Under the pieces are notes generated by a model. It was not told where the DNA came from. It made no database searches and worked only from the letters and a program-made list of their open reading frames with translations. From the NCBI GenBank assembly GCA_945861155.1, contig CAMATN010000038.1, positions 1-37,510 of the forward strand: a DNA stretch of 37,510 nucleotides, read 5' to 3'. The translations under genes and the position numbers were made by a program. How positions within the stretch are numbered: the stretch's first letter is position 1; each line of letters begins with the position of its first letter. The DNA comes from Rhizobium sp. Q54 (GTDB lineage Bacteria > Pseudomonadota > Alphaproteobacteria > ATCC43930 > CGMCC-115725). Positions 31,298 through 31,469 of this stretch are shown in pieces.

Positions 31298-31453
31298 CTC
31301 GCCCAAGCTTGGTGGTATGGGCGGCCCCGGCGACTGTTCGGGCTGAGAGAAGCAGCGGATGGGGCACCAGGCTCAGGAGCGGGCTCGAACACCCGAGGAG
31401 GCTGAGGGCTCCCATCCGCGACCGCAGCACCGACTTTACGCCGGTGCCGCGGT
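31298..31453 (-). ncRNA. Predicted bridge RNA of the IS110 element
   Basis: The transposase leader folds by eye like a bridge RNA. A 5' stem-loop pairs 31453-31442 with 31432-31421 (12 bp with one G-U pair, 9-nt loop). A 9-bp stem GCGGATGGG/CCCATCCGC (31419-31411 with 31363-31355) encloses an internal loop. Its 5' side GCCTCCTC (31402-31395) equals the left target plus CT core. Its 3' side TCCTGAG (31378-31372) is complementary to the core plus right target. An inner hairpin CGGG/CCCG separates them. Farther on, ACAGTCGC (31337-31330) equals the element's own end plus the first core base, and CAAG (31311-31308) matches the other end weakly. Overall this is the IS621 arrangement. Expression is unproven. 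Confidence 0.78.
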
Positions 31454-31469
31454 GATGCCGAGATACAAG

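Follow-up and report, generated by a model that had tools for sequence, protein, structure and literature searches.

The minus strand of the window, the 37,510-nt stretch of Rhizobium sp. Q54 DNA analysed here, carries an IS110 element at positions 30307-31469, including a CT core at both ends; features below are on this strand unless stated otherwise. The limits of the element were set from the split repeat in which it lies, from the donor motifs of its relatives (TGTATC and ACAGTCG) and from the rejoined empty site, and sequence and empty-site comparison place the left core at 31468-31469 and the right core at 30307-30308. By comparison with intact copies, the palindromic repeat that holds the element is divided into a left half at 31470-31499 (the part common to those copies) and a right half, CAGGATGAGG, at 30297-30306. 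The left flank ends in GCGCCTC and the right flank begins with CAGGATGAGG, giving a split target that reads GCGCCTC-CT (31476-31468) and CT-CAGGATGAGG (30308-30297). The right end of the element (30309-30327), defined from the sequence and the junction read, contains TTGACT (30327-30322) and the left donor ACAGTCG (30315-30309). Rejoining the flanks yields CGCGTCCTTCGAGACGGCGCTTCGCGCCTCCTCAGGATGAGG, which occurs letter for letter, over 42 identical bases, in two of the eight intact repeat copies printed (L015 and L031); most of the remaining printed copies have small loop differences, and others are cut by a contig end. The rejoined flanks restore an intact repeat, so the insertion was scarless at the dinucleotide core.

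The target repeat is widely dispersed. The 19-mer GCGCCTCCTCAGGATGAGG has 39 exact copies in the genome and occurs at 180 places with up to three mismatches, compared with one for a reversed control, and the 12-mer GCCTCCTCAGGA, specified by the guides described below, has 62 exact sites against none for its control. These counts are probably minima, because the assembly is fragmented (226 contigs) and breaks at the repeat; the contig of the window itself starts and stops in it (11-29 and 37478-37496). A text search of the open-access literature for CCTCATCCTGAGG found no name for the repeat. Assignment to Br-REP1 or Br-REP2 of Bradyrhizobium was considered and rejected, since the consensus sequences given for these in PMC5082802 differ. 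Just past the right end of the element, near an hsp90-like gene, lies a second repeat copy in the opposite orientation (30226-30268), an arrangement like that of a paired, BIME-like unit.

The recombinase gene of the element is broken. Its N-terminal RuvC-like (DEDD) part lies at 30892-31275 (PF01548, 78.3 bits) and is matched in the PDB by the transposases of ISCro4 (E 4.1e-15) and IS621 (E 7e-12); the C-terminal part (Transposase_20; PF02371, 66.7 bits) lies at 30327-30856 in another reading frame. In tblastn searches, the proteins of relatives align to the element piecewise, passing through two or three frames in succession: the frame changes between 30892 and 30856 and, where the last piece was aligned, again at about 30383, the second frameshift. 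The first break corresponds to a repeat-like insert at 30857-30891, where the window has 35 nt and the relative L055 has four codons; the net gain over relatives is 23 nt, and the frame is shifted. The two frameshifts mean that ordinary reading gives no full recombinase. The lack of an intact single frame bears on the activity of this copy and not on its ancestry, and the copy is most likely now immobile unless helped in trans, its reading frame having since been lost. The first-pass annotation mentioned neither the frameshifts nor that only a single full copy can be found. The insert itself (CCTGCCCCGGCGCAGGCCGGGGTCATCC) is palindromic and repeat-like, and short stretches resembling it occur in at least seven other places. 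Also inside the recombinase coding region is a perfect 17+17 bp palindrome (31175-31208); in a relative on contig C90 of the family genome G018, a 30-bp opposite-strand match lies near the corresponding place.

Upstream of the gene, the left non-coding end of the element comprises 192 nt (31276-31467) and is the putative bridge RNA region. We aligned the leaders of 16 relatives, with the window excluded, and built a covariance model whose structure was given as two looped modules. This model recognised the leader of the window over 31470-31276 at a score of 109.9 bits (E 1.2e-29, an approximate value given the shortened calibration), the sole match up to E 10 in the 37.5-kb window. The range first annotated, 31298-31469, proved too short: it does not take in the right donor guide at 31284-31292 or the closing stem. 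An Rfam search of the window returned nothing at curated scores, and laxer limits over 30200-31600 gave three weak matches, the best to an sRNA family on the opposite strand (E 0.18).

Structure and homology together predict an RNA of about 180 nt with two internal loops at the left end of the element. Across the 16 relatives, 97.2% of 432 cells in the model structure are paired, and 14 of the 27 pairs show changes on both sides; on each of the five measures, every one of 500 shuffles scored lower. Being drawn from these same 16 sequences, the structure has an advantage over slid controls; the two-sided changes are the stronger point. Eleven of those 14 pairs fall in the stem of the target-binding loop, in a helix of 15 pairs. 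The leader also folds better than its own shuffles (z -3.28, with none of 200 as low). Fold and covariation in the relatives place the target-binding loop at 31355-31419, closed by the 9-bp stem that the first-pass annotation had described (31411-31419 with 31355-31363); for the preceding 5' stem-loop (31421-31453), given there as 12 bp, the minimum-energy fold shows 14 bp. The donor-loop hairpin has an inner part (31299-31319) of 21 nt, compared with 6 in the model consensus.

One observation counts against the reading and is partly of the sort that the first-pass annotation had named as refuting it. When the window RNA is folded by itself, its minimum-energy structure partly pairs the guides with each other: three left-guide bases pair with three right-guide bases, and three further left-guide bases pair with bases just past the right guide. 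Opening both guides would cost 3.7 kcal/mol, which ranks 38th among 64 distinct RNAs (window included; median 4.4). Guide-guide pairing in the isolated fold is therefore usual for the family, the opening cost being a little under the median.

The observation made in the first-pass annotation is confirmed, and all the strings quoted there are present on the minus strand, namely GCCTCCTC (31402-31395), TCCTGAG (31378-31372), ACAGTCGC (31337-31330) and the split target. To compare guides and site, we took the guide register from the covariance model, independently of the target. In this register the left target guide, CAGCCTC-CT (31396-31404), matches seven of the nine bases of GCGCCTC-CT including the core (CAGCCTCCT against the site GCGCCTCCT), and the right target guide, TCCTGAG (31372-31378), is the exact reverse complement of CT-CAGGA (guide CTCCTGAG, reverse complement CTCAGGAG, site CTCAGGATGA). 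Excluding the core, which is matched on both sides, the guides fit the occupied site at five of seven positions on the left and five of five on the right. On the left the guide fails to match at positions 1 and 2, and matching in the set of relatives is likewise poor there (0.22 and 0.39).

Short strings in a GC-rich sequence (0.69 over the leader model match) might resemble one another by chance, and coincidence could in principle explain such a fit. We consider it exceedingly improbable here: the register set by structure still yields 10 of 12 non-core matches, and the correspondence holds across relatives. Of 3316 CT dinucleotides scored on both strands of the window, five had 10 of 12 non-core guide matches: one is the guide DNA of the leader itself, and the other four are arms of repeat copies that hold no insertion. 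Two further sites had 9 of 12, and no others had more. The occupied site is split and so lies outside the scan. The earlier judgement that the arrangement is unlikely by chance is upheld by these counts.

If the two strings are guides, they should follow the insertion site of each element. With only one full copy found in the genome, relatives took the place of the sister copies proposed for this test. Of at least 178 sources encoding a relative, 80 were taken as relatives, and the covariance model gave 79 matches in 77 of 81 sources (16 of them having built the model), with none in L064, L091, L120 and L134. We dropped 23 matches in which CTTGTA or CTCGTA was absent at the model start and kept 56 rows, of which 55 had a usable left side and 46 a usable right side. 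With one row per distinct guide pair and the window included, left guides (n=36) agreed with their own site at a mean of 4.11 of 7 positions, compared with 2.17 for other sites, and right guides (n=31) at 4.13 of 5, compared with 1.80. On each side none of 100,000 shuffles reached the own-site matching, shared descent remaining in these shuffles, and the outcome was the same without the window (n=35 left, n=30 right). A corresponding shuffle of left donor guides is excluded from the evidence as partly circular, because right ends were picked partly by guide similarity.

Guide use differs by position. Left matching rises from 0.22 at the far end (0.24 for other sites) to 0.89 beside the core (0.59 for other sites), and right matching is 0.74-0.90 over five bases (0.27-0.43 for other sites) and 0.19 at the sixth (0.18). 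Own sites are well above others at left positions 3-7 and right positions 1-5, and not at left position 1 or right position 6. Individual rows vary. Nine loci in Burkholderia cenocepacia NCTC13227 share one guide pair, which fits 4-5 of 5 right positions at all nine and 1-5 of 7 on the left. Poor fits also occur among the relatives, on the right in L069 and L075 (0 of 5) and L092 (1 of 5), and on the left in L086, L114 and L118 (1 of 7); the printed guide strings of L075 and L086 look one base off the expected register and were counted uncorrected.

These results bear on a further possibility, that the leader is a structured 5' UTR with no role beyond regulating the transposase, its guide-like strings being host repeat captured at insertion. 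Such control has a precedent in ISPpu9, whose transposase is described as controlled by small RNAs and 5'-UTR structure (PMC8450116). It is a very unlikely account of this leader, in which the guides stand on opposite sides of a covarying loop, each with the core, in the arrangement of IS621; guides follow each element's own site in many hosts, and capture does not readily explain a second guide that is reverse-complemented.

The second loop has a corresponding relation to the ends of the element. The left donor guide, ACAGTCGC (31330-31337), equals the right end ACAGTCG plus the first core base, a match of eight out of eight that agrees with the first-pass reading and holds in the model register. 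The right donor guide, AUGCGCAAG (31284-31292), can pair with CT-TGTAT, with one G.T, in the interrupted manner of IS621 (AU, GC flipped out, G.T, CAAG); in the IS621 structure, A157-U158 and C162-G165 pair, two bases are flipped out and G161 lies opposite T (PMC11208158). Under the handshake rule described in the same source, three of the four putative handshake bases fit: the donor-loop bases GA (31282-31283) are complementary to target positions 6-7 (TC), the first of the target-loop bases CC (31370-31371) pairs with donor position 7 (G), and the second is not complementary to position 6 (C).

When the right and left ends are joined, the junction reads TTGACT, 17 bp, TATCTC, which resembles a promoter at the level of sequence. 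TTGA has this offset in 40 of the 47 right ends examined, the window among them; in two it stands at a different offset, and in five it is absent. A promoter rebuilt in the circle has been described for IS110 elements (PMC11208160). By analogy, abutment of the two ends in an excised circle would create the promoter-like sequence from which the left end could be transcribed. The first loop, with CAGCCTCCU as its left guide and UCCUGAG as its right, would then pair with both strands of the host repeat around the CT core, and the second loop would pair with the junction of the element's ends. The recombinase would exchange strands at CT, leaving the site otherwise unchanged with a CT at each end.

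Taken together, the covariance model, own-site matching, donor guides and promoter-like junction bear out the earlier proposal of an IS621-type bridge RNA with a natural guide aimed at a dispersed palindromic repeat. We put at roughly 94% the probability that this IS621-like IS110 element has its bridge RNA in the leader, with guides to the repeat and to its own ends, and that this copy most likely landed in this way and then lost its recombinase frame.

Its present state is a separate matter. The leader may be a decayed relic, descended from a bridge RNA and no longer functional, which would be compatible with the bridge RNA reading as far as origin is concerned. The two recombinase frameshifts, the single full copy found and a donor-loop hairpin that exceeds the model consensus by 15 nt are in keeping with decay, whereas the guides, the closing stems and the promoter-like junction are all present, so that the RNA itself lacks clear decay; on balance we regard a non-working relic as unlikely, if a real prospect. 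No other full copy of the element was found in its own genome, where the covariance model gave one match. A second, truncated IS110 relative on another contig of this genome (L002; G000 contig C108, about 1500-2400) is without the N-terminal end and the leader and has the right end ACAGTCGCT. A DNA search of 39 family genomes, including its own, gave some match in 19 (11 candidates per genome scored); the best outside its own genome were partial, with 69-70% identity over about 330 and 240 bases in G018. Model R1 had matches in six of the 39, its own included, and among seven model matches in family genomes a usable left end was available for L165 and L170 and a usable right end for L170 alone.

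Comparison with known systems places the bridge RNA element close to IS621 of E. coli. The donor ends TGTAT and ACAGT are presumably closely alike in the two elements. IS621 shares with the window element the CT core, the two internal loops and the same guide order (PMC11208160, PMC11208158), as well as the interrupted right donor guide (PMC11208158) and, compared by description, insertion in a REP repeat; across the joined ends IS621 has a promoter and the window element a promoter-like sequence (PMC11208160, PMC11208158). It differs in its target repeat and in that the recombinase is broken in the window copy, and its right target guide, as published, matches two bases plus the core compared with five plus the core in the window. 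ISMno7 of Methylobacterium nodulans, an IS110 element named in a plasmid annotation, has 64.8% identity over 87% of the N-terminal piece. Other IS110 family elements, ISRm19, ISPpu9, ISPpu10 and ISPa11, are likewise described as inserted in palindromic REP repeats (PMC1525189); the likeness is one of description and not of sequence, and the repeats and hosts are different. Both REP-targeting IS110 elements and bridge RNAs are therefore already published, and the window element is a further example. Our open-access search found no literature on this element or its repeat.

ISPa11 is called an IS1111 member in a source that reports its targeting of REP sequences (PMC11187229), which raises the idea that the window element is of IS1111 type, with a seekRNA downstream of the gene. 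This is extremely improbable: the RNA model match, the sole one in the window, lies upstream of the gene. Homology to the proteins of relatives reaches to within 18 bases of the right core and leaves no room for a downstream RNA.

Related elements with predicted bridge RNAs appear to use the same kind of repeat in two ways. L055, from an uncultured alphaproteobacterium (Loclat_bin-01229) and the best among the matches listed, has an N-terminal protein 75% identical to that of the window and occupies a repeat of this kind at the corresponding CT, and its guides are similar; unlike the window it has the left guide GTGGCTCCT, and its donor guide and right end have ACGGTCG in place of ACAGTCG. L165 and L170 in family genome G018 have the left target CCTCATC-CT and the guides GCTCATCCT and TGTCATCCT. 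The right side of L170 starts with CTGAGCCG, the reverse complement of its own right guide; the right end of L165 was not found. Three elements of Rhizobium sp. CCGE 510 (L105-L107) also have CCTCATC-CT, followed in L105 by CTGAGG. From their sequences, these five sites look like the other arm of such a repeat on the opposite strand, and the guides of the elements are similar.

The apparent use by related elements of another CT within this type of repeat is mildly new. We tentatively suggest, at somewhat less than even odds, that alphaproteobacterial bridge-RNA elements have been aimed more than once at one dispersed palindromic repeat family, at two CTs on opposite strands: GCCTC-CT-CAGG in the window and L055, and CTCATC-CT, followed by GAG where the right side is readable, in the two G018 elements and Rhizobium sp. 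CCGE 510. The repeat would then be a shared, harmless landing pad on which guides converge.

The agreement between guides and sites, worked out from raw sequence, provides an independent natural confirmation that insertion sites are predicted by bridge-RNA guides in a lineage distant from the E. coli element, and it gives the per-position use of guides for this set of relatives. It also suggests dispersed repeats as places in which natural guides can be collected.
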